Below, piece by piece: positions 2,921 to 28,710 of a stretch of DNA of 64,000 bases (positions within the stretch are counted from its first letter, which is position 1; every line of letters begins with the position of its first letter). Made by a program: the position numbers and the translations under genes. Below the pieces are notes generated by a model, which was not told the DNA's origin, made no database searches, and saw nothing but the letters and a program-made list of their open reading frames with translations. Source of the stretch: Hyphococcus sp. GTDB taxonomy: Bacteria > Pseudomonadota > Alphaproteobacteria > Caulobacterales > Parvularculaceae. The DNA is taken from assembly GCA_021776245.1 (NCBI GenBank), contig JAJFGF010000068.1:1-64000 (forward strand), read 5' to 3'.

Positions 2921-5900
2921 ATGTCACCAAAAAAAATTGTTGTCGTCCTCGGTATGCATCGCAGCGGCACCAGCGCGCTAACACGCGGCCTACAAGTGCT
3001 GGGCGCGACGCTCGGCGACAATTTAATGCCGCCAGTGCAGGAAAACAACGAAAAGGGGTTTTGGGAAGATCTCGATATTTATCGCCTCAATGAATTGCTG
3101 CTGAAAAAGGCCGGCAGCGCCTGGCACTACATGGGGCCACTTGAAATTGCCGGATTTACATCAGACACCTACGCTGCGGAACGCCGTGATGCTTCCAAAT
3201 TGCTGGCTGAAAAACTCGCTATTACGGATGTCTTTGCATTTAAAGACCCTCGCACCGCCATCCTTTTACCATTCTGGCAGGCCGTTTTCGACGATATCGG
3301 CGCTAACGTATGCTATGTCATAGCAATTAGAAACCCACTGGAAATTGCCACTTCGCTTCAACGCCGCGACGGCATTGACTTGACAAAAGGCCTGATGCTT
3401 TGGGCGAAATATACGTTTAATGCGGTTCAATATACTAATGATATGAAACGTATCTTCGTATCGTTCGAAAATTTGCTTGAAAACCCGTCCCGAGAACTGA
3501 CTCGCATAGCGCATTCCATGGAATTGCCAGCTCCCGACCCGCTGAAAACTTCATTCAAGGATTATGCGCGCGAATTCTTGGACCAGAAATTTCGCCACAA
3601 TGTGTATTCGCGTGCTGAAATGGCGGCGTCGACGCATGGTTTGACGTTTCTTTCACGTCTTTACGAATTAGCAATTGACTGGTCAGCCCTTCCTGAAGGG
3701 GGGCCTTCCCGTCCAGACGAAAACGTATGGTGTGACCTCATCGCACAATTCGATGAAGATGCGCCGCTTCTAGCTTGTATCGATACCATCGAAGAACAAC
3801 GGGGCGAAGCAATCAAACTCAACGACCGTTTAGAAAAAGACAGTGCCACACTCACAAATGAAAATGCCGTACTCGCAAAAGACAATGCCACGCTCACAAA
3901 TGAAAACGCCGCACTCGCAAATGACGTAAACGCCCTCAAAGATGAGAAAAGTACGCTTAAAACAAAACTTCACGCCACTTGCGATAATCTTGACGCAATG
4001 ACGCAAAAAAACCGCGAATTAGTGCGCGAGATCGATGCGCGTAGTTCTACATTAACCGAGCTGGAAGTCGCTCATGGCCGAAATGCACGGGAACTACAAA
4101 TCGTTCAAAAAATGCTGGTCCAAAGCGAAGAAAACCTCCTAGTCGCCTATAATCAAATTGACGCAGTGCTACTAAGCACATCTTGGCGGATTACAGCGCC
4201 ACTGCGCGGAACAAAATCGTTTCTCAAAAATCCTATAATGGGCGTTCGCGTAGTTTTGTCAGTTTGTGTGCGACGAATTTCGCGTAGGATTCCGTTGCCT
4301 CCCCGAGCAAAGAGCGCACTGGTCGATGCGGCCTTTTCAGTATTCCCATTCGTCTTTGGTTGGTCAGCGACATACAAAGCTTGGCGTCAGGCAAAAGATA
4401 TCGAAAAAAAAAAAAGAACTAGAGCTAGCAGCCTAGCCAATGCAGCGACGCTTGATGGGTACACACCACTCCGCGCTCAAACCGCCCCATTTCGCTTAGA
4501 GGCGCGTGCGATCGCATTTTACCTCCCACAATTTCACACTATCCCGGAAAACGACGAGTGGTGGGGAAAGGGTTTTACGGAGTGGACGAATGTGCGCCGT
4601 GCCTCGCCGCAATTTCCGGGGCATTGTCAACCCCGCACGCCCGGAGAGCTGGGCTACTATGATCTCGTAAAAAACCCCAACATCCGCCGACGCCAAGTCG
4701 AATTGGCGATGCTCCACGGAGTCTCGGGATTTTGTTTCTATTTTTACTGGTTCGCCGGCAAACGATTACTCGAGCAACCCATTCTCGATTTTGCCGACGA
4801 CCCAGAAATAAATTTTCCATATTGTTTATGTTGGGCCAATGAGAATTGGGGCCGCCATTGGGATGGATTAGATGATGAAATCCTGATTGCGCAGGATCAT
4901 TCTGCCAGCGATGACATAAACTTCATCAGCCACATATCTCGTTTTCTGAAAAATGAAAACTATATAAGAATTGACGGAAAACCGCTCCTTATAGTGTACA
5001 GGCCCGCCTTGTTGCCAGACGCCTTGGAAACTTCTGAGAGGTGGCGTGATTGGTGCCGACGAAAGGACATCGGAGAGATCTACCTCGCCTATACTCAAAG
5101 CTTTGAAACCGTCGATCCGGCCGAAATCGGTTTTGACGCCGCCATTGAATTCCCTCCAAACAATTCTGGCCTGGTGGAAAAATCGCGGCGATCGGCAACG
5201 CCATCGCCAGAATTTTCTGGAAAAATCTATGACTGGACCGATCTCCACAAAAAAAGTTACGCCTATAGAATTCCCTCCTATGCGCTATTTCGGGGGATCA
5301 ATCCACGCTGGGATAATACGCCCCGTCGGTTGTCTCATGCGACAGTCCTTACAGGCGCTTCGCCGGAACTGTATTGTGACTGGCTGGCAAACGCCGCTGA
5401 AGAAACCAAGCAACGATTTAGCAATTGGGATGAGCGCCTGATCTTCATCAACGCGTGGAATGAATGGGCGGAAGGTGCCTATTTGGAGCCGGACAAAAGA
5501 GACGGCTATGCTTGGCTGGAAGCGACCCGCCGCGCACTTAACCCAAATGAGCGAAAAATCATCGTTGCGATCCACGATTTACACAAGCATGGCGCACAAT
5601 ATCTCGCCCTGAATATGGCCCAGACTCTGAAGGCCCGGTTTGGCCATGATGTCACGATAATCGCCGGCGAGGACGGCCTTCTGCGAGAGGCGTTTTCGAA
5701 ACTGGGACCCGTGCTGATCGTCAACAAAGACACTGCGTACGAAACAATCAAAAAGCTGTCGGATGACGGATACGCCAATGCAATCGTAAATTCATCAGCG
5801 GCAGGATGGTTGTCGCCTCATCTAAATCGCGCAGATATTCATTTTATCGGCCTCGTCCACGAACTGCCGTCTGTTGTTGAGGTCATGGATTTGGCGGGCA

Positions 5901-7531
5901 ACCTGATCGAAATGGACCGATATGCGCAACAGGTGGTATTTCCATCGCGAAGGGTCAGCAATCAGGACAGCGCCGCAATAGGGATTAAATGGCGTCGACC
6001 GACGATCCTGCCTCAGGGGTTATATAAGAGAGATGGCATTGCAAAAATTAAAGAGAAAGAAAAAGCCAGAAATTCTGTAATCGCCTGTCTCAGATTGCCT
6101 GAGGATGCACGTATTATGCTCGGCGCGGGCTATGGCGATCATCGCAAGGGCATCGACATATTCATCCGTTGGGGCCTCGCGCTGGCATCAGCAAGTCCAA
6201 ATGCGCATGCCGTCTGGATTGGTAATATCGACGCAGCGATGAAAGCAAAATGCGATGAATTGCTGGCCGAAGCGGGCGCGGCGGCGCGCAATATTCATTT
6301 TCCTGGTTTTGTTGACGACACCGGCGTGTTTTATGCCGCCGCCGATCTATATGCACTGAGCTCACGAGAGGATCCTTTTCCATCCACAGCTTTGGAAGCT
6401 CTGTCGGCTGGCGCGCCTGTCATCATGATTGCCGGCGCGGGTGGCATTGAGGATATCACAGAACGAGAGTGCGTTATTGCGCTTGATACGCTCGAGCCGG
6501 ACGGTTTTGTATATGAAGCCCTGGCGCTTATTGGCTCTGCGTCACGGAAACGATCGAGGCTGGGTCTGATCGGTAGCAACTTTGTTCGCGCCGAATTTGG
6601 ATTTGCAAGCTACATGGGCGATCTGCTGCGCATGGTGGGCGCGCCGTGCCCGCGAGTCTCCGTCGTTGTGCCAAATTATAATTACGCGACACATATAGCT
6701 CAACGGCTGCGTTCTATTCTCGACCAGACGCTTCCGCCATGGGAAATCATCTTCCTTGACGATGCCTCAAGCGATAATAGCATTGAAATAGCTGAGAGTG
6801 TCCTTTCCGAGTCTGACATCCGGTATCGCATTATCCGCAACGACAAGAATTCAGGCAGCGTGTTTTCACAATGGCGCAAAGGCGCCAACCTAGCACGCAG
6901 CGAATTGATATGGATCGCCGAAGCCGATGACTGGGCGGACCCGGCGTTTCTGGACGCCACGGCGACGCCGCTTGCCGCCGATGAACAGCTGGCGATCAGC
7001 TATACGCAATCAAATCAGGCAAACATCCAGGGGATCGTTACGTGCCCTGACTATCTCGACTATGTCGCGGATGTGAACCCTGACCGCTGGCAGCGTGGCT
7101 ATCGCTGTGACGGATGCGAGGAGATTCAGAAAGGAATGTCAGTGAAAAATACGATTCCCAATGTCAGCGCCGCTGTATTCCGCGGCGAAACCCTGCGGCG
7201 CGTGCTGAACGAAAAATTTGAAGAGATTTCACAATATCGCGTTGCTGGCGACTGGATGACGTATGTCAATATGCTGCGCTATGGCGGCGTGGTTTTTGAT
7301 GCGCGGTCATTAAATTACCACCGCCGACACGATAACAGCGTCACCATCAGCCGGTTTGGCCTTGAGGAATTCGCCGAAATCGCTCAAATGCAGGCTTATG
7401 TGGCGCAAGAATTCGGGATAGATGAGCCCGTGCGCCAGACGGCGCGCGCCTATTTGGACCACCTGGCGCAGGAATATGGCCTCGCAGACGATTTCGGCGC
7501 TGAGGCGGTGGCGAAAGCCATGGCCTCGTGA
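2921..7531 (+). CDS. Giant multidomain glycan enzyme: sulfotransferase-like / WbsX-like / GT4 / GT2
   Basis: A 1536-residue cytosolic fusion. Residues 1-280 resemble the sulfotransferase family: the N-terminal P-loop GMHRSGTSALTRGL matches a PAPS-binding loop. Residues about 300-400 form a coiled coil with near-identical repeats of NATLTNENAALA. The LLSTSWRITAPLR stretch near residue 420 is a linker often seen before glycosyltransferase domains. Residues about 525-870 are WbsX-like (FYLPQFH, WWGKGFTEWTNV, CWANENWG, FINAWNEWAEGAYLEPD). Residues about 875-1230 form a GT-B, family-4-like domain (HRKGIDIF, LSSREDPFPSTALEAL). Residues about 1243-1440 are a GT-A, family-2 domain (VSVVVPNYNYATH, LDDASSDNS, acidic EADDW). 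One polypeptide could therefore catalyse several steps of one repeat unit. The first ATG is used although no strong ribosome site precedes it. Confidence 0.8.
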   Translation: MSPKKIVVVLGMHRSGTSALTRGLQVLGATLGDNLMPPVQENNEKGFWEDLDIYRLNELLLKKAGSAWHYMGPLEIAGFTSDTYAAERRDASKLLAEKLAITDVFAFKDPRTAILLPFWQAVFDDIGANVCYVIAIRNPLEIATSLQRRDGIDLTKGLMLWAKYTFNAVQYTNDMKRIFVSFENLLENPSRELTRIAHSMELPAPDPLKTSFKDYAREFLDQKFRHNVYSRAEMAASTHGLTFLSRLYELAIDWSALPEGGPSRPDENVWCDLIAQFDEDAPLLACIDTIEEQRGEAIKLNDRLEKDSATLTNENAVLAKDNATLTNENAALANDVNALKDEKSTLKTKLHATCDNLDAMTQKNRELVREIDARSSTLTELEVAHGRNARELQIVQKMLVQSEENLLVAYNQIDAVLLSTSWRITAPLRGTKSFLKNPIMGVRVVLSVCVRRISRRIPLPPRAKSALVDAAFSVFPFVFGWSATYKAWRQAKDIEKKKRTRASSLANAATLDGYTPLRAQTAPFRLEARAIAFYLPQFHTIPENDEWWGKGFTEWTNVRRASPQFPGHCQPRTPGELGYYDLVKNPNIRRRQVELAMLHGVSGFCFYFYWFAGKRLLEQPILDFADDPEINFPYCLCWANENWGRHWDGLDDEILIAQDHSASDDINFISHISRFLKNENYIRIDGKPLLIVYRPALLPDALETSERWRDWCRRKDIGEIYLAYTQSFETVDPAEIGFDAAIEFPPNNSGLVEKSRRSATPSPEFSGKIYDWTDLHKKSYAYRIPSYALFRGINPRWDNTPRRLSHATVLTGASPELYCDWLANAAEETKQRFSNWDERLIFINAWNEWAEGAYLEPDKRDGYAWLEATRRALNPNERKIIVAIHDLHKHGAQYLALNMAQTLKARFGHDVTIIAGEDGLLREAFSKLGPVLIVNKDTAYETIKKLSDDGYANAIVNSSAAGWLSPHLNRADIHFIGLVHELPSVVEVMDLAGNLIEMDRYAQQVVFPSRRVSNQDSAAIGIKWRRPTILPQGLYKRDGIAKIKEKEKARNSVIACLRLPEDARIMLGAGYGDHRKGIDIFIRWGLALASASPNAHAVWIGNIDAAMKAKCDELLAEAGAAARNIHFPGFVDDTGVFYAAADLYALSSREDPFPSTALEALSAGAPVIMIAGAGGIEDITERECVIALDTLEPDGFVYEALALIGSASRKRSRLGLIGSNFVRAEFGFASYMGDLLRMVGAPCPRVSVVVPNYNYATHIAQRLRSILDQTLPPWEIIFLDDASSDNSIEIAESVLSESDIRYRIIRNDKNSGSVFSQWRKGANLARSELIWIAEADDWADPAFLDATATPLAADEQLAISYTQSNQANIQGIVTCPDYLDYVADVNPDRWQRGYRCDGCEEIQKGMSVKNTIPNVSAAVFRGETLRRVLNEKFEEISQYRVAGDWMTYVNMLRYGGVVFDARSLNYHRRHDNSVTISRFGLEEFAEIAQMQAYVAQEFGIDEPVRQTARAYLDHLAQEYGLADDFGAEAVAKAMAS
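3827..3935 (+). repeat. Imperfect internal tandem repeat encoding the coiled coil
   Basis: Within the fusion gene, units of about 42 nt encode DSATLTNENAVLAK, DNATLTNENAALAN and a partial third copy. Such repeats expand and contract by slippage, so spacer length between the sulfotransferase-like and glycosyltransferase parts may vary between strains. Confidence 0.6.
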
Positions 7532-7616
7532 AGCGAAACGAGCAAACTGTCAGCAAGTTGCCTCTTGGCCTCTATTCAATTGTTGGTTAAAGCAACGAAG
7601 ATCGGGGATACCTATA

Positions 7617-10600
7617 ATGCTTACGCGCAAACTTGAAAACCGTCGGTTGAATCGGCGCATAGGTGCGGTTTTTGACGCTGATTATTACCGCACGGAGAAT
7701 CCGGATGTAGCCGCGGCGGAAGTAGATCCTCTACAGCATTATCTCAACTTCGGATGGAAAGAAGGTCGCGATCCTAACCCACTGTTTGATTCTAATTGGT
7801 ATCTTCAACAGAACCCCGACGTCGCAGAAGCTGGCGCCGAGCCTTTGCAGCACTTTCTGACGCGAGGGTGGGAGGAAGGGCGCGATCCCAACCCTCTATT
7901 CGACACGGCCTGGTATCTGGAGCAGAACTTGGATGTCGCCCATGTTGGCGAAAATCCGCTTGTTCATTTTGCCCGCGACGGCTGGAGAGAAGGTCGCCTC
8001 CCCCATCCGCTCTTCAATACGGCCCAATATCTAATGAAATATCCGGATGTCGCCGCCGCAGGCGTCAATCCGCTTGCACATTATTTGATGGCTTGCCGCA
8101 AAGAAGGTCGTGAGCCGGAGCCTTTAGTTTCTAATACGCCTAATTCATCAACAAATATTAACGCAGAAAACGCCAACCTAACGGCGCACACGAAATGCGA
8201 TCCCAAAGACGCCAATGTTAGCTATATGGCATTACGCCAGGAAGTCTTAGACTCAGCCCTGTGGGACGAGAAATGGTATCTCTCTAAGTATTATAAGCAT
8301 TACCTTGATAGTAAAAGAAAAAGAGCGGATGGAGAGCTTTTTTTTCCGCTGGACTACTATTTGCAGGAGGGGTGGAAACTTGGTCACGAACCATCGAATT
8401 CATTACCAGTTCAGATCAATCAAAATCAAGTCGGATGCAGCAAGATTGAGTATTTTCTCAACCGAGTAAGGTTTGACGGATATCAGTTCGATGAAAACAC
8501 TTGGGAGCCATCCGGGAAACGGATAGAAGAATATCTCCGACAAAAACAATATCGAAATTCGACGAAGGTTATCTATACCTGCATCGCGCAAAATTATGAT
8601 GTGCTCATGCAGCCTTACTTCATTTCGGCTGATTGGGACTATGTTTGCTTCACGGATGATCCCGATCTGCTTGCCCAAGAGGATGTGGGCGTTTGGGAAA
8701 CCCGCCCAATGTCAGATACGCTGTCGAGCGGAACGAGAACTAATCGCTGGCACAAAATGCATCCGCATATCTTGTTCCCAGCATACGAAGAAAGCATCTA
8801 TGTCGATGGCAACATCAATATCTTGAGCGATTACTTTTTTGGCCAGATTGCAAATCGCGGCCCGTTAATTCTTTTGCCGCAGCATTTCAAGAGAAATTGT
8901 ATTTACCAAGAGATAGAGACTCTCCTCAAAAGCCGCCGGATAAGCGATGAGGACAAGTCTTTATTGCGCTCGCATCGTCGATTCCTCGAACAGGAAGGTT
9001 TCCCGGAAGAATTTGGCCTAAGTGAAAATAACCTGATTTATCGCAAACATCATGCCGATCTTATCGTCAAGCTTATGCGCGAATGGTGGAAAATGTATGA
9101 TGAATATTCATCACGCGATCAAACCTCCCTAGCCTACGTGTTTTGGAAAAATGACATTTCGCTGCATACGCACATGATTGCGAATTGTCGAGTAAATTAC
9201 AAAGACTTCTGGGTTGTGAAACACCTTCCAGACCGGCCAGGACAAATCTGTCTAACGCGGCAAGCGCTCGCTCCCGCGTTTGGCCGGAAAAATATCGCTG
9301 TGGTGTTTTCCACGAACGAGTATTTTATTCCGTATCTAGGCGTCGCGATATATTCCCTAATCGAAAATGCCGATGACAATTATAATTATGATATTGTGAT
9401 TCTCGCCAAGGGGCTGGGGTCGGCTCTGGCGAAGATTTGCAATCTGGCCCGTGATCGCAGCAATGTATCGATAAGAGTCTATGATACAACGGCGCTCATC
9501 GCATCTCTCCCGACGGACATATTTCACGTTGAAGGTTATGTGCCTGTCGAGACCTATAACAAATGTTTCATTACCGAAGTTTTGTCAGGATACGATAGGT
9601 GCCTCTACCTTGATTCAGATATTCTTGTATTGGACGACATTCAAAAATTGCACGACTTTGACCTCGCAGGGCATGCCATCGGCGCGAGTGTGAACGTGGC
9701 GAATGTGAATGCGGCATATTGCAAAAAAGTTATAAAGGGAAGGAGATTTAACGAGTATCTCGAGAAGAATCTTGGCGTTCTGGATCATAACAAATATTTC
9801 CAGGCAGGCGTTGTCGTGCTGGACATGAAAAAATTGGGTGCCATGAACTTGCGGCAGCTGACGATCGACGCATTGGAAAAAGTCAAAAAGCCGATATTTT
9901 TCGACCAATGCATATTTAATCGTATTTTTTATGGGGATGTGTGTTTCTTTTCCACGGGATGGAATCATGTCTGGTATATGCAGCAATATTCATACTTGCG
10001 CGGCTCTGTGCCGGACGATGTTTTCTTTGATTATGCGCATGGCAGGGTAGATCCGAAAATTATTCACTACGCCGGCAAGGCGAAGCCGCAAAACCATCTG
10101 GGTTGGACGCTTGCTGATAATTTCTGGAAGTACGCGTATGCGTCTCCCTTCTTTGAAGATATCCGAAAGGACATATTAACGCAAAACAATGGCATTGCGC
10201 CAATGATATCGCGAGAATCTAGCCATGAATGGTCGCGTATAAAGCCGCGTTTGCTTGTGCACGTACATTTGTATTATGCAGATCAGCTCGACGTTATGAT
10301 CGATGCATTGAAAACTATAACCGACTGCGACTACGATCTGTTCGTTACGATGGTTGAGAAGAATAACGTAGCGGAGAAAAGCATACTGGGAATATCAGAA
10401 GGGGCGCGTTTTTTCGTGCTTCCGAATGTCGGTTACGACGTTCATCCGTTTTTACATGTTCTAAAACAGGTTCGGTTGGCGAATTACGATTTTGTGTTGA
10501 AAATTCACACCAAGAACGCCAGACGACCTGGGCAGGATGAGGTATATGGCATAAAGGTCCCGGGGTATCATTGGAGAGATGAGTTGCTAAACGCCATCGT

Positions 10601-10958
10601 CGGCTCAAAGAAGATATTTGGGGAAAATCTGGCGCGATTCCTCGAAGACAAGGAATTGGGGTGCATCGGGGCGGGAAAATTTATTTTTTCTACACAAGAA
10701 AACAATGAGGAGAGGACGTATGGGCTCGCAGAATGGCGCCAGAAATGTGGTGTTACCGACGGAACACGGTACGTGGGCGGCTCCATGTTTTTCGCGAGGG
10801 CATATCCGTTTGAACGGTTAAAGGGATTAAATATGCAGACGGAAGATTTTGAATCTCCGCACGTGGGCACAAAGGATTACAAGAACACAGCGCATATATT
10901 TGAAAGACTGTTCGGAATCGTAATTGAGAGCGAAGGGTTTGAGATTAGAGGGACGTGA
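7617..10958 (+). CDS. Multidomain glycosyltransferase with N-terminal tandem repeats (DUF616-like / GT8 / RgpF-like)
   Basis: A 1113-residue protein. Residues about 19-170 hold four 34-35-residue repeats of the type FD-x2-WYL-x2-NPDVA-x6-PL-x-H-x12-EGRDPNPL; a degenerate fifth follows at about 215-265. Residues about 318-540 resemble DUF616/TOD1-type glycosyltransferases (IYTCIAQNYDVL, ADWDYVCFTDD, NRWHKMHPHILFP, YVDGNI). Residues about 560-845 form a GT8 domain with its metal-binding DxD in CLYLDSDILVLDD. Residues about 880-1113 resemble RgpF (LLVHVHLYYADQLD, NVGYDVHPFL, FVLKIHTKN), a family linked to rhamnan assembly. The start at 7617 has gggga upstream; the open frame extends back to 7422 but overlaps the previous gene and lacks the domain. 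The product probably adds several sugars to one glycan. Confidence 0.8.
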   Translation: MLTRKLENRRLNRRIGAVFDADYYRTENPDVAAAEVDPLQHYLNFGWKEGRDPNPLFDSNWYLQQNPDVAEAGAEPLQHFLTRGWEEGRDPNPLFDTAWYLEQNLDVAHVGENPLVHFARDGWREGRLPHPLFNTAQYLMKYPDVAAAGVNPLAHYLMACRKEGREPEPLVSNTPNSSTNINAENANLTAHTKCDPKDANVSYMALRQEVLDSALWDEKWYLSKYYKHYLDSKRKRADGELFFPLDYYLQEGWKLGHEPSNSLPVQINQNQVGCSKIEYFLNRVRFDGYQFDENTWEPSGKRIEEYLRQKQYRNSTKVIYTCIAQNYDVLMQPYFISADWDYVCFTDDPDLLAQEDVGVWETRPMSDTLSSGTRTNRWHKMHPHILFPAYEESIYVDGNINILSDYFFGQIANRGPLILLPQHFKRNCIYQEIETLLKSRRISDEDKSLLRSHRRFLEQEGFPEEFGLSENNLIYRKHHADLIVKLMREWWKMYDEYSSRDQTSLAYVFWKNDISLHTHMIANCRVNYKDFWVVKHLPDRPGQICLTRQALAPAFGRKNIAVVFSTNEYFIPYLGVAIYSLIENADDNYNYDIVILAKGLGSALAKICNLARDRSNVSIRVYDTTALIASLPTDIFHVEGYVPVETYNKCFITEVLSGYDRCLYLDSDILVLDDIQKLHDFDLAGHAIGASVNVANVNAAYCKKVIKGRRFNEYLEKNLGVLDHNKYFQAGVVVLDMKKLGAMNLRQLTIDALEKVKKPIFFDQCIFNRIFYGDVCFFSTGWNHVWYMQQYSYLRGSVPDDVFFDYAHGRVDPKIIHYAGKAKPQNHLGWTLADNFWKYAYASPFFEDIRKDILTQNNGIAPMISRESSHEWSRIKPRLLVHVHLYYADQLDVMIDALKTITDCDYDLFVTMVEKNNVAEKSILGISEGARFFVLPNVGYDVHPFLHVLKQVRLANYDFVLKIHTKNARRPGQDEVYGIKVPGYHWRDELLNAIVGSKKIFGENLARFLEDKELGCIGAGKFIFSTQENNEERTYGLAEWRQKCGVTDGTRYVGGSMFFARAYPFERLKGLNMQTEDFESPHVGTKDYKNTAHIFERLFGIVIESEGFEIRGT

Positions 10959-11191
10959 TCCACAGGGGGCGTCCGAGACGGCTGCCATCGCGTTTGATCA
11001 AGAAGTCTTCATAGACAGACATGATATCTCGTGGCGGCCTTGTTCTGGATCAAATCCTGTGGGGAGAATGGTCCGGACAGGGGCAAGCTCCGAAATCTGG
11101 GCGGGATGTTGCGATCCTCAAGACTCCGTAAAATTTTGCGCTGCAGATAGTGATATAACTTTCGATCCAGAAATAAAGAGGGGGCAAAACA

Positions 11192-12079
11192 ATGCTCACG
11201 GATGACATAAAAGCGCCGTTAGGCTTTGATTATGAGTTTTACAAAAAGGACAAGCCCTTTCTGCAATCAAGGGAAGAGGCTTATAATCATTTTGTAACGG
11301 TCGGAACGCAGGAGGGATTGAAAGGATCGCCTGCTTGTGATCAAGGGTATTTGCTCGATTATTTACGCAATTTACATCCGGAAAAAATCCTGGAAATCGG
11401 TCCGGGGTGTGCTCCTAAATTGAAGGGAAACAACGTATTTTATTTTGATGTCAAATCAAGAGAAGAATTGCAACAAAGATATAAGAACGATCCTGGTTTT
11501 CACAAAATACCGGAGAAAATTCACTATGTTGATAAAACGGGTTGTTTGACGAATATAAGTGACAAGTTTGATATTGTATTTTCTTCTCATGCAATTGAGC
11601 ACTCATTAGATTTGATCGATCATCTTAATGATGTGGAGTCAATATTGGATGAAAACGGCCTTTATGTTGTTGTGGCGCCGAATAAGAATTTTACGTTTGA
11701 TTACTTCAAACCTGTTTCCGTCGTTGAGGACGTCTTGGCCCGACACTTTGGCGGTTCGGGCGCAGCCTCATTGTCGCTTAGAACTGTATTGCTGGAAACC
11801 CATCGACGCACGCACAACTCGCCGGCACGCCATTGGGCCAATGATCATGGGGAAATGTGTTTTGATAAGAGCAATATACTGAATAGTATAGCCCGCTTTG
11901 ACAGCATTGTGAGTAATAACGTTACGTTAAGTGGATACCATAATTGGATTTTCACAGAAGAATCCTTTGTTAAGATTATAAATGCTCTGCACGAATTAGA
12001 GCTAATTTCCTTGAGGGCATATGAATCCTATAATACGCCATTCGGCGGTATGTCGTTTTCCGCAATTCTGGGGCGATGA
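11192..12079 (+). CDS. SAM-dependent methyltransferase with repeat-like N-terminus
   Basis: A 295-residue methyltransferase with motif I KILEIGPGCAPKL near residue 65 and the motif IV/V region FDIVFSSHAIEHSLDL near 130, typical of class I enzymes of the methyltransferase-11 type. Its first 45 residues (FDYEFYKKDKPFL ... HFVTVGTQEGLKGSP) resemble one degenerate unit of the repeats in the preceding gene, so the two proteins may share a docking module. The ATG is preceded by agaggggg. It lies 233 nt after the previous gene in markedly AT-rich DNA. Substrate unknown; a sugar or the growing glycan end is the likely target. Confidence 0.75.
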   Translation: MLTDDIKAPLGFDYEFYKKDKPFLQSREEAYNHFVTVGTQEGLKGSPACDQGYLLDYLRNLHPEKILEIGPGCAPKLKGNNVFYFDVKSREELQQRYKNDPGFHKIPEKIHYVDKTGCLTNISDKFDIVFSSHAIEHSLDLIDHLNDVESILDENGLYVVVAPNKNFTFDYFKPVSVVEDVLARHFGGSGAASLSLRTVLLETHRRTHNSPARHWANDHGEMCFDKSNILNSIARFDSIVSNNVTLSGYHNWIFTEESFVKIINALHELELISLRAYESYNTPFGGMSFSAILGR

Positions 12080-12446
12080 CCTAAGTCCCGTTTGGCTCCT
12101 GCCAATGATAACGTAGGAATAGTTTCGCAAATTGGAGTTGATCTGGCGGCTCTCCTTCTCTGGTTGAATGATGTTTTTGGTCAAATTCCACTCAAGCCTG
12201 AGTCGCGAGCCGTCAGCTCAAATTGGTCTTTGTGAAAGAAACACTAGGCTATCTGCGATAGCGCGCAGCTCGTTTCGAGAAGCTGGGACGAGACTTCCTG
12301 TCTATGCAGTTTCTGCCCGCCATCAAATAAGTCCGGACCCTAATTGGAGCAATTAGCGCAAGGGCGCTAATCTGGTGCGTGACGAATATTCGGTATAGAC
12401 TTATAAAATTGTGCAAAGGCAATATTGGGAGTTTGAAGGCATCGTA
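12080..12446 (+). other. 367-bp intergenic stretch with a hairpin
   Basis: No gene is convincing here. It holds an 8-bp perfect inverted repeat, attagcgc (12352-12359) with gcgctaat (12364-12371) around a 4-nt loop. No T tract follows, so it may be an operator, an mRNA-stabilising hairpin or a poor terminator. The promoter of the downstream LicD/methyltransferase unit probably lies between it and 12447. Confidence 0.45.
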
Positions 12447-13484
12447 ATGGATTTCTTTAGAAGCAGAGGAAAGAACACACAAATTCGACGCAAGCCTACC
12501 GCCGATAATCAATCGTTCAAGCGGTTTGGAGAACTCTTAATCGCCAACAATCAAGAAATTTCAGGCTGGGCGATTGGCGCTTCGTCGGAAGAGCCGCTGC
12601 TGGTTACATTGGTCATTAATGGCGTCGAAGCCGTCCAGGTGCGCGCCAACCTCAGTAATAAGCGCTTCCGGTCAACAGATGGGCATGATCGTCCGTGTGG
12701 GTTTAAATTCGCAATTCACGAATCGCTTAGGAGCAAATTGCCTGCAACCAATAAGATCGCGGTGCGATTGCCTGACGGAACGCTGCTGTCAACAGGCAAA
12801 GATTATGCCAGTGAGTTAACCGGTGCGGACGGCGTGTCGCCGCAGGCGCTAAGCGACGAGCTTGCCTCCGGACGCATTCTTATCCCTAAAAGCGGCGCAT
12901 TGCTGCGGCCGATCAGTGCGAGAGACGGCTGGACGGACAAAGCGCTAAAGTCCTATCAGGAAGCCGAAAAGATTTTGAGGGAGCAGATGGGCAAGAGGCT
13001 GTTTGTGGCATATGGAACGCTACTGGGCCTGATCCGCGAAAATACACTACTCGGACATGATGATGATGTGGATGCCATGTTTTTGTTGGACTCGACAGAC
13101 GCCAAATCGGCGGGAGAAGAGTTTTCCAACATAGCGCAGACATTGTCGTCAGCCGGCCAGAATATTACCAGCGTATTTCCCGGCGGGAATTTACATTGGA
13201 AAACTTCCAACGGAGTAGTTCTTGATGTCTTTGGATGCTGGGCTGACACAGAAACTCTAAATGGCTACATGTTTTCTTTTTCAGGTTCAAAATCTGATAT
13301 ATTTCCAACAGTCACTCGGAATTTACATGGTTTGAAAATTACGACGCCTGCAGCGCCGGAGCGTTTTCTGGAGGGCATCTATGGCGTTGAATGGCGCATC
13401 CCCGACCCGCAGTTCCAATGGCGGCCTAAACAAGAAACACTAAATCGAATGACAGAATTTGGAAAAGGGGTAAGAGGAGAGTGA
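12447..13484 (+). CDS. LicD-like phosphotransferase
   Basis: A 345-residue protein. The C-terminal two thirds match the LicD/fukutin-type nucleotidyltransferase fold: LFVAYGTLLGLIREN at about residues 190-205, then the metal-binding HDDDVDAMFLL and a GVVLDVFGC strand. LicD proteins transfer phosphocholine or a similar phospho-substituent from a CDP-linked donor to a sugar. The first 120 residues are a separate domain (WAIGASSEEPLLVTLVINGVE) with a beta-rich look that I cannot name. The ATG at 12447 is chosen because gaagg lies 8 nt upstream; a GTG at 12411 is in frame. The stop overlaps the next start in GTGA, so the three genes to 14913 are translationally coupled. Confidence 0.7.
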   Translation: MDFFRSRGKNTQIRRKPTADNQSFKRFGELLIANNQEISGWAIGASSEEPLLVTLVINGVEAVQVRANLSNKRFRSTDGHDRPCGFKFAIHESLRSKLPATNKIAVRLPDGTLLSTGKDYASELTGADGVSPQALSDELASGRILIPKSGALLRPISARDGWTDKALKSYQEAEKILREQMGKRLFVAYGTLLGLIRENTLLGHDDDVDAMFLLDSTDAKSAGEEFSNIAQTLSSAGQNITSVFPGGNLHWKTSNGVVLDVFGCWADTETLNGYMFSFSGSKSDIFPTVTRNLHGLKITTPAAPERFLEGIYGVEWRIPDPQFQWRPKQETLNRMTEFGKGVRGE

Positions 13485-14188
13485 ACGACACCAAGGCGAA
13501 TTTAGACGATATTGTATCTTCCTCTGCGGAATCAATTGTTCAGTATTGGGACTCGTTCTATCGTATGGCGGCCATGAGAACGCCATCGCAATTCGCAGCT
13601 CTTGTGGCGAGCGAGCTTAAGTCGCCACATATCATCATCGATGTCGGTTGCGGAAATGGGCGTGATACGTTCTTTTTTGGCGACATTGGTCATATAGTCA
13701 TTGGCCTTGACGCGTCGGGAACAGCAATCGATTCGAATTCATCGCAGATATCCGATGATTTGAAAGAGCGAATATTCTTTAGACAATTTACTGTGGGCGA
13801 AGATTCGTTTGACGCAGTTACTGACTTCATTGCGGGGGCCCAATTTGATCACCTGCCAGTCGTTATCTACAGTCGGTTTTTCCTGCATGCCATCACCTCT
13901 GTTGCGGAAGATGAGTTTGCGCAGCAGCTATCTGGAATATCACCTACTATTTCCGGAATATTTCTCGAATACCGGGACATAAGAGATGCCAATATGGTAA
14001 AAATTTATGCCGATCACTATCGCCGTTTCATCGATCCCGACGCTTTTTCGAAGAAATTAACATCCGACAGCGATTACAGTTTGCTGTATCAGGTCATCGG
14101 TCAAGGCTTCGCCAAATACGGGCGCGAGGATCCTTGGATCGCAAGGCAAATATTTGCGGCGCGCTCAAACATGAAAGCTGATCAATGA
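13481..14188 (+). CDS. Class I SAM-dependent methyltransferase
   Basis: A 235-residue methyltransferase. Motif I is IIIDVGCGNGRDTFFFG at about residues 48-64 and the strand-2 acid lies in HIVIGLDASGTAI. The GTG start overlaps the previous TGA and has aagaggaga immediately upstream, a strong ribosome site. It ends in an ATGA overlap with the next methyltransferase. The N-terminal segment SIVQYWDSFYRM resembles the lead-in of glycan-cluster methyltransferases. No membrane segments. Substrate unknown; it probably acts with its coupled neighbours on the same sugar. Confidence 0.75.
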   Translation: MNDTKANLDDIVSSSAESIVQYWDSFYRMAAMRTPSQFAALVASELKSPHIIIDVGCGNGRDTFFFGDIGHIVIGLDASGTAIDSNSSQISDDLKERIFFRQFTVGEDSFDAVTDFIAGAQFDHLPVVIYSRFFLHAITSVAEDEFAQQLSGISPTISGIFLEYRDIRDANMVKIYADHYRRFIDPDAFSKKLTSDSDYSLLYQVIGQGFAKYGREDPWIARQIFAARSNMKADQ

Positions 14189-14913
14189 CAGTCGACGCGG
14201 TCAAATACAGATTTGACGGGCGCTGCGATATTTGCAATGACGCAGTGCAATTCACTTCGACGCAAGGCTGGTTTCGCGATTATCTTTTATGTTCTGGGTG
14301 CAAATCAATACCGCGCGAGCGGGCGTTGATGAGGGTTATTAAGGAGCACTATCCAAATTACGCAACGCTAACTATCCATGAATCGTCCCCATGTGGGCGC
14401 GGTGTTTCGACTAAACTCGCAGACGAGTGCCCAAACTATTCCTACTCGCATTATTTCGTCGGTATCCCCCCCGGGGAATTTTCCCTGCAACACGGCGCCC
14501 GTAACGAAAATCTGGAAAAACTGACCTTCGCCGATCATTCATTAGATTTATTCATCACACAGGATGTGATGGAGCATATTTTTCATCCGGAGGCGGCGTT
14601 TCGCGAAATCGCCCGGGTGCTGCGCCCAGGCGGCGCGCACATCTTCACGGCGCCGCTGGTAAACAAGGCGAAACAGACCCAGAGGCGCGCGGAATTATCA
14701 GCGTCGGGCGACGTAATTCATCACTTTGAGCCGGAATTTCATGGCAACCCCGTCGATCCGGAAGGCTCACTTGTCACAATGAACTGGGGATACGACATCG
14801 CCGCTTTCATAATGGAAAAAGCGGGAACTCCGTCAATAATCATACAGATCGACGATATAAGCGCTGGCATTCGAGCGGAGTATATCGATGTTATCGCAAG
14901 CTTTAAACACTGA
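14185..14913 (+). CDS. SAM-dependent methyltransferase with N-terminal zinc ribbon
   Basis: A 242-residue protein. The N-terminus has two Cys pairs, CDIC (about 13-16) and CSGC (about 36-39), suggesting a small zinc-binding module. The methyltransferase part is recognised by LFITQDVMEHIFHPEAAFREIARVL and GGAHIFTAP, the late motifs of methyltransferase-11 enzymes; the glycine-rich motif I is degenerate (TIHESSPCGRGVS). ATGA overlap with the preceding gene. The combination is common in polysaccharide clusters and probably acts on a nucleotide sugar or nascent chain, by inference. Confidence 0.7.
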   Translation: MTVDAVKYRFDGRCDICNDAVQFTSTQGWFRDYLLCSGCKSIPRERALMRVIKEHYPNYATLTIHESSPCGRGVSTKLADECPNYSYSHYFVGIPPGEFSLQHGARNENLEKLTFADHSLDLFITQDVMEHIFHPEAAFREIARVLRPGGAHIFTAPLVNKAKQTQRRAELSASGDVIHHFEPEFHGNPVDPEGSLVTMNWGYDIAAFIMEKAGTPSIIIQIDDISAGIRAEYIDVIASFKH

Positions 14914-15024
14914 AAATAGGATTGATAATTCTAAGTGATTTGAGCGATAAGGCTGTGTTAATTATTGGCCGCCGGATCAAATCCAACAGAGCGGCGTGGC
15001 GCCGCCGCGAGCGTCGCTGACAAT

Positions 15025-15867
15025 ATGAGAGAAAGCCCGTTGTCTGATACTACTGTTTATTCCGCCTCTAACGCTGTTGGCGTTAATGCAGTGTTGATCG
15101 ATCTTGTTAAGGGCTGGCGCATGGATGAAGTGTGGCGGGCCTTTGCTTGGGATGAAATCCAGAATCGCTACCGTCGCAGCATATTCGGCGTCGCGTGGAT
15201 TTTTTTGTCGTTCATCATTTTTGTTGGCGGCATTGCGATTTTTTTTGGCGGGTTTTCATCCAAGGATGGCGTCGCGTTCATGGCGTTCGTTGCGTTGGGA
15301 TTTTCGTTATTTCAGTTTATAATCAGCATTATAACTGACGGATGCAATGTTTTTCGACTGTCAGCGACCTGGATTAAAAGCTCTACTCTGCCTTATTCTA
15401 TCTATGTCTACATGAGCGTTTCACGTTCGCTCTTTCCATTTCTTATTCATATTGTAACAACGATCGGCGGCATGGCGGTTTTTGGCCAGTTGGAACTGAG
15501 GTGGGAAGCGCTCGCTGCAATTCCGGCGCTTGCAATAATAATGCTAAACGCAGTCCCCGCGCAAATGCTGCTGGGCACTATCGCCGCAAGATATCGTGAC
15601 ATTACTCATCTGGTCACGTCGATCACGCGTATTCTTTTTTTTGCAACCCCGGTGTTATGGGTCCTTGAAGAACAGTCGGGATTTAGAGCGAAACTCGCGG
15701 AAATGAACCCGCTAACCCATTATATAGAAATCTTTCGCGCACCGCTTTTAGGAGGGGAGGCGCGCGCCTTAAGCTGGTATGTTGTTATTGGATGTACGTT
15801 GTTCCTATGGATTACGGCGATCGCAGTGATGGCGCAATTGCGCCGCCGGCTGCCGTTTTGGGTGTAA
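15025..15867 (+). CDS. Polysaccharide ABC-2 exporter, permease subunit (Wzm/KpsM-type)
   Basis: A 280-residue inner-membrane protein with about six hydrophobic helices. It begins with the cytoplasmic helix typical of the family (DEVWRAFAWDEIQNRYRRS), followed by GVAWIFLSFIIF, and ends ITAIAVMAQLRRRLPFWV. It forms the channel that carries a finished, lipid-linked polysaccharide across the inner membrane using the ATPase encoded next. The ATG at 15025 is preferred; a TTG at 14965 would add 20 residues that do not look like part of the family. The gap to the ATPase gene is 73 nt. Confidence 0.8.
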   Translation: MRESPLSDTTVYSASNAVGVNAVLIDLVKGWRMDEVWRAFAWDEIQNRYRRSIFGVAWIFLSFIIFVGGIAIFFGGFSSKDGVAFMAFVALGFSLFQFIISIITDGCNVFRLSATWIKSSTLPYSIYVYMSVSRSLFPFLIHIVTTIGGMAVFGQLELRWEALAAIPALAIIMLNAVPAQMLLGTIAARYRDITHLVTSITRILFFATPVLWVLEEQSGFRAKLAEMNPLTHYIEIFRAPLLGGEARALSWYVVIGCTLFLWITAIAVMAQLRRRLPFWV

Positions 15868-15940
15868 ATATGTGCCCCGACAATACGTCAAATACGCTGG
15901 CGCATATTCACCCTTGCCCCGATAATTGAATTCCACGTAA

Positions 15941-16702: not shown

Positions 16703-16737
16703 CAAGCATCCGGCCCTAGCATCACAGGAATTCAAAT

Positions 16738-19245
16738 TTGAAAACTGCTATCCTTACAATATGTGCAAAGAATTACGCGGCATATGCGCTCACTCTTTAT
16801 GAGAGCCTGCAGCGCGCCGGTGAAATGTGCGATTTTTTCTGGATTGTTAGCGATGAATTCAACGGCAGCAACATCGAAACACCCAATGAAATGCACGTTA
16901 TAGAAGCGAAAAATATCATATCGCGTGGGTTCGCAGATATGGCTTTTCGCTATGATGTCACCGAGCTGTCTACGGCGATAAAACCATTCTGCATTCTTGC
17001 GCTGTTGGCACGCGACTATGATCGCGTGATTTATCTGGACCCTGACATTTATGTCATCTCGAAATTTGAAGAAGTTCATACTGCTTTTGACGCTGGCGCG
17101 AGCGCCGTCCTGACGCCTCATATCTGCGCGCCGCTTGAAGACGGGAAACATCCTGATGATCTGCAGATATTGCGCGTCGGGACGTTCAATCTCGGATTTG
17201 CCGCTTTCGCCGATAATCGGGACAGCCAGACTTTTCTGGAATGGTGGGCGCGGCGGCTGGAGTGCGATTGTCGTATCGAATTGGAGGCCGGCCTCTTTGT
17301 AGATCAAAAATTCGTCGATCTTGCGCCGTCATTCCTGGACGATCTCAAAATCCTGAAGCACCCGGGATACAACGTCGCTTACTGGAATCTTGCCCACCGC
17401 GCTATTGCAAGAACGGAAGGCGGCAGCTGGCGCGCCAACGGCCAGCCGGTGCGGTTTTTTCATTTTTCAGGCGTTTCGCCTGATAATCCCGATATCTATT
17501 CTAAACATCAAAACCGTTATGATGCGAGCAATATTGGGAAGCTCAGTGAGGCGTTGCGGGATTATATCAAAGCCCTGAACGCACATGGCTATCGCGAATC
17601 GAAATCTCACCCCTATTCTTACGATTATTACGCCTCCGGCGCCAAACTGCCGACCGTGGTGCGAAAAGCCTATGCGCGCACTGCACCAAGAGATGAAGCC
17701 CTGACCCTGAGCACAGCATTCGGAGAAAGCGCGCAGATCCCTCGGTTCTTAACGGCACCGATCGATGGGAACCCTTCGTCACTATCAAGACTTGAAACGG
17801 AGGCGCTGCTGCAGCGCCCCGATCTCGCCACAGCGTTCGTAATGCGACCACCAAAAGCGTTTAAATCGTGGTTTCGTAGTCATGGCAAAAACGAGTTTGA
17901 TTTGCCGGGTGCCCTAGCTGTTGAAGATGGCAAAGATGAGGAGCGGATGGGCGCACGTCTTGCCGGGAAAATATTGAATGCCCGCGCATTTATGCGACCT
18001 TTCTATAGATATTTACCGATGAGCCTGCGTACTGGTGTTAAGCGTGCTTTGTTGCGCCGCTACACAAGCAACGCCGATGAAATCCTGTTACCTACGACAG
18101 CAAATGGCGTTTTCGATCCCAATCGGCGCCCAGGTGTCCAACTATACGGGTTTTTCGGATCTGCCAGCGGCGTCGGGCAGAGCGCCCGCGGAACGATCAG
18201 CGCGATGAAGGCCGCAGATATTCCCTTTGCAACGACTAGATTGCGCAATCCCTATGACAATCGCGAAACGGCGCCGTTCCGAGAAAAGCCTGCGCCGCCA
18301 GCAGGATTCAGAATCGCGCTTTTGCACCTTAACGCAGAACAATTGCTCCGCATCGGAGAACTGATGCCAACGCGACATTTGGTGGGACAATATCGGATCG
18401 GCGTTTGGGCGTGGGAACTTGCGAAGTTTCCATTGGAATGGAAGGCGGCTATGAAATATGTTGACGAGATATGGGCACCAACCGCCTTTGTCGCCAACTC
18501 TATAAAACAGGAGACAGATAAACCCGTCCATGTTGTTCCACACGTCATTGACGTGGAACACAAACAGGAAGTCCTAGCCGAAGAGCGCGCCTTTATCGGG
18601 GCCCGAACGAGTTTTCTGACAGCGTTTGACGCAAAATCTTTCATTAGCCGGAAGAATCCAGGCGCCGCAATTACTGCCTTCAAGAAGACCTTCCCAGCGA
18701 GCGATGCTTCGGGACCCGTTCTTGTTGTCAAAGCAAATGGTGTCGATGACTTGCGACCTAATCTTCGGGATCTGGTCGAGCTCATCGGCGGCGCAAACAA
18801 TATCCGACTGGTCACGAGGTCCATGCAGCGAGATGAGTATCTCTCTTTAATGACAGCTGTGGACTGTTTCATCTCGCTTCATCGTAGCGAAGGATTTGGT
18901 CTCAACATCGCGGAAGCCATGGCGCTGGGAAAACCAGTCATCGCCACGAATTACTCCGGCGAGATCGATTTTTATGACGGAAAGGTTGGCGCGACAGTAT
19001 CATTTGATCTTGTCCCAACACCTGAAGACGCATACCCTTTTGCAACGGGGCAGGTCTGGGCAGAGCCACACGTTGATGCAGCCGCGGACGCGTTGCGCAA
19101 ACTCGCCGCTTTGCCTGAATTGCGTCAGGAACTGGGAAAAGCTAGCGCCGCGCGAATAAAGGAAAACTTTTCGGCGTCCGCGATCGGCAGGAAAATGCGC
19201 ACGCGAATTCACCATATCGATCCTGATTTACCGCTATCCCAATGA
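16738..19245 (+). CDS. Bifunctional glycosyltransferase, GT8-like plus GT4
   Basis: An 835-residue two-domain enzyme. Residues 1-300 form a GT8-like GT-A domain: MKTAILTICAKNYAAYALTL, then RVIYLDPDIYVIS with the metal-binding DPD, and a later GTFNLGFAAF. Residues about 460-835 are a GT-B domain of family 4: GFFGSASGVGQSARG, the hinge GVWAWELAKFP, and the donor site HRSEGFGLNIAEAMALGKPVIATNYSGEIDF. The start is a TTG at 16738, supported by aggaa eight nt upstream; no ATG fits near the conserved N-terminus. It lies 35 nt after the exporter ATPase gene and so is probably co-transcribed. Confidence 0.8.
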   Translation: MKTAILTICAKNYAAYALTLYESLQRAGEMCDFFWIVSDEFNGSNIETPNEMHVIEAKNIISRGFADMAFRYDVTELSTAIKPFCILALLARDYDRVIYLDPDIYVISKFEEVHTAFDAGASAVLTPHICAPLEDGKHPDDLQILRVGTFNLGFAAFADNRDSQTFLEWWARRLECDCRIELEAGLFVDQKFVDLAPSFLDDLKILKHPGYNVAYWNLAHRAIARTEGGSWRANGQPVRFFHFSGVSPDNPDIYSKHQNRYDASNIGKLSEALRDYIKALNAHGYRESKSHPYSYDYYASGAKLPTVVRKAYARTAPRDEALTLSTAFGESAQIPRFLTAPIDGNPSSLSRLETEALLQRPDLATAFVMRPPKAFKSWFRSHGKNEFDLPGALAVEDGKDEERMGARLAGKILNARAFMRPFYRYLPMSLRTGVKRALLRRYTSNADEILLPTTANGVFDPNRRPGVQLYGFFGSASGVGQSARGTISAMKAADIPFATTRLRNPYDNRETAPFREKPAPPAGFRIALLHLNAEQLLRIGELMPTRHLVGQYRIGVWAWELAKFPLEWKAAMKYVDEIWAPTAFVANSIKQETDKPVHVVPHVIDVEHKQEVLAEERAFIGARTSFLTAFDAKSFISRKNPGAAITAFKKTFPASDASGPVLVVKANGVDDLRPNLRDLVELIGGANNIRLVTRSMQRDEYLSLMTAVDCFISLHRSEGFGLNIAEAMALGKPVIATNYSGEIDFYDGKVGATVSFDLVPTPEDAYPFATGQVWAEPHVDAAADALRKLAALPELRQELGKASAARIKENFSASAIGRKMRTRIHHIDPDLPLSQ

Positions 19246-19285
19246 TTTTTGCAGTCGCCGTGGGCGTTGATCAACCAGATGGGCG

Positions 19286-20293
19286 ATGCTGGCGAAACTT
19301 TCAATGACTGCGCCGGAAATCACAACCATTATTGTAAATTACAATGCTGGCGATCGACTACGAATGTGCCTCGAACACCTTGAGGCGCAAACTTTTCAAA
19401 ACTTTGAGACTATTATTGTCGATAACGCATCGACAGACCAATCGATGGCCAGTGCGGTAAGCGATAGCCTGTCGCTCCAGAAAATTGAACCAGGATCAAA
19501 TATTGGATTTGCTGCCGCCAACAATCTTGCCGCTGCGCGCGCCCGCGGCATATGGCTAGCGTTTTTAAACCCCGATGCTTATCCGGAAAAAGACTGGCTC
19601 GCACGGCTTTTGGATGCTGCAAAACGTTTCCCTTTTGCGGATGCATTCGGCTCGACGCAGCTTGATGCCAAAAACCCAGCTATTATTGACGGAGCAGGCG
19701 ATGTCTATCACGCCTTTGGCATACCGTATCGCGGACATTTCGGCTGGCCGGTTGAGAGGCTGCCGCCGGAAGGCGCCTGTTTCGCGCCTTGCGCCGCTGC
19801 GGCGATGTATCGGCGCGCGACATTCGATTGGCTCGGGGGGTTTGATGAGAGCTTCTTTTGCTATGGCGAGGATGTGGATCTCGGCTTTCGGCTGCGTCTT
19901 TCTGGAGGGACCTGCATTCAGGTCCGCGAAGCAAAAGTTCGCCATGAAGGGTCCGGCATCACGGGACGGCAAAGCGATTTCACGATCTACCACGGCCATC
20001 GAAATCGTATCTGGACATTTTATAAAAACATGCCTGCGCCGCTCCTATTGTTGCTAACGCCGTTTAACATTTTGACCAATCTATATCTTTTAGCCCGCGC
20101 CCTTCCCGCAGGTTTTGCAAGGGCATATTTCCGAGCTTTTCGAGACGGTTATCTCGGCCTGGGGACGGTGATGAAAAAAAGGCGCGCCGTTCAGCGAGCG
20201 CGCAACGCCAGCTGGCTAAGGATTGCCAAATCTCTGACCTGGTCGACAGTGAAAGTTTCAAAAAGAGAGGCTGACGTTCGCCCGTTGCCGTAA
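19286..20293 (+). CDS. Family 2 glycosyltransferase (rhamnosyltransferase-like)
   Basis: A 335-residue GT-A enzyme. The N-terminus reads ITTIIVNYNAGDRL, followed by VDNASTDQS and the GSNIGFAAANNLA loop; the acceptor-side motif FDESFFCYGEDVDLGFRLRL follows. This is the pattern of WcaA/RfbF-like rhamnosyl or related transferases. The C-terminal third has a hydrophobic stretch (LLLLLTPFNILTNLYLLA) that may sit on the membrane surface. Start at 19286; an ATG at 19304 is equally placed relative to the domain. Last plus-strand gene of this run; it converges on the secretion operon. Confidence 0.8.
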   Translation: MLAKLSMTAPEITTIIVNYNAGDRLRMCLEHLEAQTFQNFETIIVDNASTDQSMASAVSDSLSLQKIEPGSNIGFAAANNLAAARARGIWLAFLNPDAYPEKDWLARLLDAAKRFPFADAFGSTQLDAKNPAIIDGAGDVYHAFGIPYRGHFGWPVERLPPEGACFAPCAAAAMYRRATFDWLGGFDESFFCYGEDVDLGFRLRLSGGTCIQVREAKVRHEGSGITGRQSDFTIYHGHRNRIWTFYKNMPAPLLLLLTPFNILTNLYLLARALPAGFARAYFRAFRDGYLGLGTVMKKRRAVQRARNASWLRIAKSLTWSTVKVSKREADVRPLP

Positions 20294-26960: not shown

Positions 26961-27107
26961 ATTGCGAAATAACGTTTGCTGCGGTCATCGACTAGGCGAA
27001 TCAATTAAGCTAAACGAAACGTCCACGCTAGTTTAACCTGCCAAACCTGATTGTGGCGCGTCCCATGCAATGGTTGCGCCGAGATCGGCAGTCACTCGAA
27101 AAAGACC

Positions 27108-28670: not shown

Positions 28671-28710
28671 ATCCACAATCTAGCGCTCTAACCTACTGAG
28701 CTAAGGCGGC
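28634..28710 (-). tRNA. tRNA-His (anticodon GUG)
   Basis: Read on the minus strand it folds into a full cloverleaf: acceptor stem GCCGCCU with AGGCGGU, D stem GCUC/GAGC, anticodon stem CUAGA/UCUAG around loop UUGUGGA (anticodon GUG), and T arm CCCCG-UUCGAUC-CGGGG. The discriminator is A73, CCA is encoded (28634-28636), and the base before position 1 is C, so no G-1 is encoded. That is the atypical tRNA-His known from many Alphaproteobacteria. Its 3' half overlaps the end of the polymerase-like frame on the other strand. Confidence 0.93.

Follow-up and report, generated by a model that had tools for sequence, protein, structure and literature searches.

A gene in the 64,000-nucleotide stretch of Hyphococcus sp. 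DNA analysed here (hereafter the window) raises the question of what a sulfotransferase-like domain does at the head of a protein whose other domains point to polysaccharide assembly. The sequence-only reading of this gene had proposed that one polypeptide joins a sulfotransferase-like, a WbsX-like, a GT4 and a GT2 domain and thereby brings sulfation and assembly of one repeat unit onto a single scaffold. The features discussed are listed in Table 1.

Table 1. Four-domain gene of the window, parts of its product and genes of the adjoining glycan cluster (residue numbers refer to the 1536-aa protein).
Feature	Position	Strand	Basis and remarks
Four-domain gene: sulfotransferase - coiled coil - WbsX (GH99-like) - GT4 - GT2	2921..7531	+	complete, 1536 aa
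Sulfotransferase head, residues 1-290	2921..3790	+	P-loop GMHRSGTS (11-18), K108-D-P-R, R137, S145
Coiled coil, residues 296-385	3806..4075	+	heptad test; Pro/Gly-free; coil-like on to about 412
Basic amphipathic stretch from SWRITAPLR, residues 421-460	4181..4300	+	hydrophobic moments; putative membrane contact
WbsX domain, GH99-like	4493..5536	+	Pfam; E848, E851 align with GH99 Glu positions
GT4 domain, residues 880-1235	5558..6625	+	Pfam; R1075-K1076, E1150-D1151...E1159
GT2 domain, residues 1240-1490	6638..7390	+	Pfam; D1280-D1281, D1336-D1337, D1444-W1445, R1468
TOD1/MUCI70-like - GT8 - RgpF, second multidomain protein	7617..10958 (ORF opens 7422)	+	Pfam
Methyltransferase-like	11192..12079	+	matches below Pfam cut-offs
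LicD-like	12411..13484	+	below Pfam cut-off
Methyltransferase-like	13481..14188	+	Pfam scan
Methyltransferase	14185..14913	+	Pfam scan
Wzm-type ABC permease	14965..15867	+	Pfam over cut-off; NCBIfam Wzm 201.9 bits, below cut-off 380
Wzt-type ATPase, 253 aa	15941..16702	+	no Wzt_C match
GT4 glycosyltransferase	16738..19245	+	domain match
GT2 glycosyltransferase	19286..20293	+	domain match

Integrity and domain order of the gene

The frame is free of stops over its 1536 codons, and a Pfam scan of the product recovered the four domains in the order proposed (Sulfotransfer_3 at residues 7-206, WbsX at 531-869, Glycos_transf_1 at 1058-1180, Glycos_transf_2 at 1247-1355; a second GT4 model matches at 1073-1203). 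The identical order within one ORF is found in the genome of a congener (G020, locus L114), and the same fusion occurs in more distant bacteria. Its recurrence in other assemblies rules out the assembly error joining separate genes that the sequence-only reading had allowed for, and an annotation artefact was rejected on the same ground; a misjoin was rejected because GC3 varies only mildly along the gene (0.42-0.62, with no sharp break). The own genome (4.14 Mb) has no second close match to the gene, three other matches being weak and lying in glycosyltransferase regions. The four-domain protein is real, conserved and modular. The domain limits initially assigned proved good overall, except that the GT2 domain is taken here to about residue 1490 instead of 1440, since the conserved D1444 and R1468 lie beyond the latter.

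The sulfotransferase head

The head of the window protein bears both the 5'-phosphosulfate P-loop and the 3'-phosphate Arg/Ser signatures; we take R137 and S145 to form the latter, and the roles of these and the P-loop residues in PAPS binding are presumed. A domain search alone gives a weak answer for this N-terminus: Sulfotransfer_3 is matched with E 4.8e-4 and 20.9 bits in the whole protein, and with 24.3 bits when the head is scored by itself, both below the curated cut-off of 27. The answer becomes firmer when related heads are considered together. The window head was aligned with 19 head domains no shorter than 180 aa, taken from loci L005-L084, with one minus-strand domain and the loci of a separate genome search omitted. 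At least 90% of the 20 sequences retain GMHRSGTS, K108, R137 and S145, and all of them P110; the head of L005 lacks the P-loop. The profile built from these heads matches solved sulfotransferases, at best with E 4.3e-6 over profile positions 126-231 only, the P-loop falling outside the matched stretch. Of the 18 best rows (E up to 0.026), 17 bear the name of a sulfotransferase and the other is a "polyketide synthase" (4gox), presumably a sulfotransferase domain; in the full set of 43 rows (E up to 1) some of the weaker ones are unrelated proteins. The profile stretch RNPxEVAxS (RNPLEIATS in the window) aligns with RNPKDVAVS of a solved SULT chain, which we take to be its 3'-phosphate site. With E no higher than 0.01, 18 of the 20 heads match Sulfotransfer_3 (lowest E 1.2e-12), and nine match Sulfotransfer_1 at E 0.01. 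The N-termini of L005, L011 and L012, labelled as sulfotransferases by the profile, are without a Pfam match at E 0.001, and certain heads have thus diverged strongly.

APS kinase makes PAPS, the sulfate donor. In the own genome an APS kinase domain lies within a 664-aa frame, presumably resembling CysNC, and the explanation that PAPS is lacking was rejected for this genome. The kinase occurs in 14 of 15 other genomes with this head (no APS kinase was detected in the L006 genome, a MAG) and in 18 of 19 genomes whose cores lack it; being about equally frequent with and without the head, it permits sulfation and does not single it out. From these motif and profile data the head is probably an active PAPS-dependent sulfotransferase, although we know of no sulfated product.

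The coiled coil and a possible membrane-contact stretch

The coiled coil noted in the sequence-only reading, here placed between head and core, is supported: residues 296-385 form a run of 90 residues devoid of proline and glycine, whose heptad score, a crude measure of our own rather than a published predictor, was equalled in none of 1000 shuffles. Pfam coiled-coil matches at 285-404 are all below cut-off. Among the matches listed, the heptad test gave p<0.05 in five of nine full fusions (window counted) and in one of seven ORFs consisting of sulfotransferase and WbsX, ORFs without a testable stretch being scored as misses. At the usual helix rise a coil of about 90-120 residues spans roughly 13-18 nm, and the modifying domain, being N-terminal, stands at its far side from the core.

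In the basic stretch that follows the coil, 18-residue hydrophobic moments reach the 0.993 quantile of the same protein, and this segment may contact the membrane. Its motif SW[RK]x[TS]xP[LFIVM][RK] is present in 11 of 91 WbsX ORFs among the matches listed, and six of these 11 carriers belong to the nine full fusions.

The WbsX, GT4 and GT2 domains

The WbsX domain (PF14307) is matched with 428.2 bits against a curated cut-off of 25.1. A profile of 35 such domains (window plus 34 of 83) weakly matches PDB entries 4ad1, 5lyr and 4acy with their variants (E 9e-4 to 0.013); the structure records name these chains "family 71" or endo-alpha-mannosidase, and we take them to be GH99 endo-mannosidases. 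The NEWAE motif of WbsX falls on NEWHE of these chains, so that both glutamates of NEWxE are shared, though in a profile match as weak as E 9e-4; two further short stretches also match. The matches include solved chains in which Gln replaces the first Glu (4v28, 5mel) or the second (6fwo), presumably made as inactive enzymes. Glutamates E848 and E851 are invariant across all 44 aligned cores among the matches listed, and public annotation of plasmid relatives reads glycoside hydrolase family 99-like. This weak profile match suggests that the WbsX domain resembles GH99 endo-mannosidases, and sugar transfer by it is unproven; the three sugar-transfer domains of the sequence-only reading are therefore not established. 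We know of no GH99 enzymes that are parts of polymerases.

Both glycosyltransferase modules look active, judging by their conserved residues. Among the matches listed, all 44 cores have R1075, K1076 and D1151 of the GT4 domain, and 43 of them E1159; for the GT2 domain, D1280 and D1281 are kept in all 44, and D1336, D1337 and D1444 in 43 of 43, one row being gapped.

Gene neighbourhood and the exporter

The glycan cluster extends over 2921-20293 and includes Wzm/Wzt exporter genes. For the second multidomain protein, the ATG at 7617 is probably the start rather than the ORF opening, since it clears the overlap. In the congener the four-domain gene, the large glycosyltransferase gene, a methyltransferase, Wzm and Wzt are kept. 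At E 1e-7 no Wzt_C domain was found in the Wzt of the window, nor in those of L113, L114, L042 and L009, and it is present in those of L011, L014, L044, L067 and L078, that is, in five of the ten Wzt scanned (window, L113, L114 and seven loci with this head; L045 and L072 were left out).

A Wzt or Wzm relative lies in the available DNA of six of seven sulfotransferase-WbsX loci, three of seven full-fusion loci (window and congener not counted, several contigs being short), 10 of 27 WbsX-GT4-GT2 loci without this head and seven of 31 bare WbsX loci; these counts are affected by contig ends and kinship and carry no test of association.

Other genes of the window lie close by. Beside the cluster, on the minus strand (20326-24945), are HlyD, ABC exporter and TolC-like genes of a type I secretion-like system; at 25566-28710 a flippase-like gene (-) and an O-antigen-ligase-like gene (+) are divergent and adjoin tRNA-His; and before the cluster, at 1263-1976, an HpiC1-like domain is followed by a PEP-CTERM/VPLPA-CTERM-like tail (below cut-off).

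Relatives and the exchange of heads

Relatives were collected at 103 loci with 91 WbsX-containing ORFs, the main search contributing the best 80 of at least 590 related stretches. Among the matches listed there are nine ORFs of the order sulfotransferase-WbsX-GT4-GT2 (window included), seven sulfotransferase-WbsX, 30 WbsX-GT4-GT2, three GT2-WbsX-GT4-GT2, two WbsX-GT4-GT2-GT4, 35 WbsX alone, four WbsX-GT4 and one GT2-WbsX. The full fusion occurs, among others, in Alphaproteobacteria, a Pseudomonadales MAG, Dyella and an Acidobacteriaceae MAG. A survey across the class (385 genomes, E 1e-20) found WbsX in eight, one of them being the own genome, and a plasmid search returned 366 matching records, none with 80% coverage.

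The head of the window type is carried by 16 of the 91 WbsX ORFs among the matches listed (the window included) and is absent in-frame from the other 75. Ten long N-termini without it comprise, by Pfam, two methyltransferases, two Sulfotransfer_2 domains, one pyruvyltransferase, one sulfatase fold, one DUF4915 and three without a match, so that enzymes adding a substituent make up five of the ten; six further N-terminal pieces, two being as short as 125 aa, gave one TPR and five times nothing. The Pfam scan of the L025 and L065 N-termini was without a match. The WbsX-GT4-GT2 core is widespread and bears two sulfotransferase types, a methyltransferase, a pyruvyltransferase, GT2 and other heads, and this variety on the same core indicates that heads are exchangeable. 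The sulfotransferase-like head, held to be unusual by the sequence-only reading, thus turns out to be one of several alternatives.

In G040 (L113, same order as the window organism) the sulfotransferase, a long coil and a terminal SSSWRLTRPLR form a separate protein of 537 aa, and a WbsX-GT4-GT2 protein, Wzm and Wzt lie within the same 20 kb. In G029 (L116, G029:C2) a 749-aa sulfotransferase-coil frame ends in the first WbsX residues and a second match beyond it contains a stop; a decayed fusion is the likely explanation. In a tree of 44 cores the proteins with a sulfotransferase head are not grouped in a single clade: the head state requires nine changes for nine rows (shuffled mean 8.3), or seven once four rows cut at the locus edge are left unlabelled. 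Since 11 of the 40 forks of this quick tree are open and for some headless rows the head may be encoded by a gene of its own, as in G040, we read it only as gain, loss or exchange, without a number of events. The cores of L005 (a Parvularculaceae record) and L088 (G035, a genome from the same family as the window) are identical; they probably stem from a single genome or from near copies, and one of them therefore adds nothing.

Comparison with known systems

In all cases of ABC-exported O polysaccharides treated in the comparison paper, a coiled-coil ruler bears the terminator enzyme at its far end, and in the described systems a C-terminal carbohydrate-binding module of Wzt recognises the finished chain, the caps described being methyl, methylphosphate and Kdo (PMC11231755). 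The closest likeness is to WbbB of Klebsiella/Raoultella O12, in which terminator and polymerase are joined in one chain: like the window protein, it combines an N-terminal terminator position, a coil, C-terminal polymerising modules and ABC export. However, WbbB caps with beta-Kdo by means of a glycosyltransferase, whereas the window protein has a sulfotransferase head, a core of GH99-like, GT4 and GT2 domains and a Wzt without Wzt_C (PMC11231755). ORF6 of Klebsiella O7 likewise has a modifying head, a coil and two C-terminal glycosyltransferase modules, a further glycosyltransferase being a separate gene, but its head is a methyltransferase-kinase with a CBM, both modules are GT2 and no WbsX is described for it there (PMC11231755). 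WbdD of E. coli O9a consists of head, coil and membrane helix, and the split form in G040 resembles it; WbdD, though, is a kinase-methyltransferase with a separate polymerase, WbdA, whereas in the window a sulfotransferase is fused to the core (PMC11231755, PMC3482155). The main text of PMC11231755 contains no word beginning with "sulf", and at the level of titles and abstracts, with subscription papers mostly outside, the literature gave nothing on this fusion or on a sulfate terminator. By this comparison the window protein has the layout of the terminator-ruler-polymerase plan, with a sulfotransferase in the place of the terminator; lacking Wzt_C in its Wzt, it is likened to WbbB and O7 ORF6 in its working and is not a strict member of their kind.

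Proposed function and alternatives

We suppose, with a probability of roughly one half, that the protein is a single-chain glycan polymerase with a built-in ruler, whose head sulfates the end of a chain exported by Wzm/Wzt. The core would extend a lipid-linked chain at the membrane, the GT4 and GT2 domains adding sugars and the GH99-like domain acting on the chain by some reaction, while the basic amphipathic stretch would sit on the membrane and the coil would keep the PAPS-dependent head away from the membrane-bound core. Only a chain end that had grown sufficiently would then reach the head and be sulfated, whereupon growth would stop. The layout of head, coil and polymerase, which matches the proteins of PMC11231755, favours the chain end over each repeat as the target, and the split protein of G040 beside its core, like WbdD beside WbdA, counts for the same reading. 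In its favour are also the retained sulfotransferase signatures and GT4/GT2 residues, the profile match to solved sulfotransferases, the five substituent-adding enzymes among ten other long N-termini and, as a permissive condition only, APS kinase. Several observations count against it: the absence of Wzt_C from the Wzt of the window, the heptad test being passed by only five of nine full fusions and one of seven sulfotransferase-WbsX ORFs, the P-loop-less head of L005, the N-termini of L005, L011 and L012 without Pfam matches, the undetected APS kinase of L006, the Sulfotransfer_3 score of the window below the cut-off and the exporter relatives at only three of seven full fusions.

Alternatively, the head would sulfate a sugar inside each repeat during growth, the coil being only a flexible or oligomerising tether. 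The anatomy is the same for such sulfation and the sulfotransferase motifs are kept; without Wzt_C no cap seems needed for export; and sulfated capsules with ABC-transporter clusters have been reported (PMC11641403, PMC11766843). We nevertheless consider it rather unlikely, though next in likelihood to capping, as a head at the far end of the coil that is swapped for a methyltransferase, a pyruvyltransferase and others is the pattern of terminators (PMC11231755). Sulfation and assembly on one scaffold are a reasonable reading in view of the sulfotransferase signatures, the GT4/GT2 motifs and the APS kinase, whereas the repeat unit, which the sequence-only reading took for the target, gives way to the chain end as the more plausible one. 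It is improbable that the head has kept the sulfotransferase fold without sulfating, its role being to bind nucleotide or acceptor for recruitment or structural purposes; the weak Pfam score in the window, L005 and the one MAG would agree with this, but conservation of the P-loop, K108, R137 and S145 is as expected for PAPS binding and the own genome has APS kinase. Independently of what the head does, the WbsX domain might be a true glycosyltransferase, making three sugar-transfer domains after all, which we find possible but somewhat doubtful: its Pfam name and its constant position ahead of the GT4 and GT2 domains in 44 ORFs among the matches listed favour this, while the profile picks up GH99 endo-mannosidases and aligns both glutamates for which certain solved chains carry Gln, and at title and abstract level no test behind the name was found in the literature.

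With a sulfotransferase in the capping place, the sequence by itself would suffice to predict a new surface group, and a conserved core with exchangeable heads would offer a simple route to predicting chain ends across several phyla. The question is also raised of what an apparently intact GH99-like active site does inside a polysaccharide synthase. A wider picture, in which a sulfate cap ends the chain, exchangeable heads on one core cap with sulfate, methyl, pyruvate or other groups, and the GH99-like domain works catalytically, perhaps trimming or re-joining the chain, is tentative and on the unlikely side.

Further arrangements among the relatives

Several frames depart from the arrangements counted above. 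A five-part frame (L012:7968-13547) consists of sulfotransferase, WbsX, GT4, GT2 and a C-terminal methyltransferase. In an archaeal frame (Methanoperedenaceae, L020:5433-12305) the same core is headed by a sulfatase fold and accompanied by an extra GT4, and a record named Acetatifactor muris (L027:6381-8672) has a pyruvyltransferase head on this core. In Thermodesulfobacterium (L024:7992-12437) a 435-aa sulfotransferase frame directly precedes a WbsX-GT4-GT2 frame starting inside WbsX, which represents either separate genes or a broken fusion. Finally, sulfotransferase heads occur without WbsX on other sets of glycosyltransferases (L021:11913-17222, L071:599-4024, L072:13377-17918).
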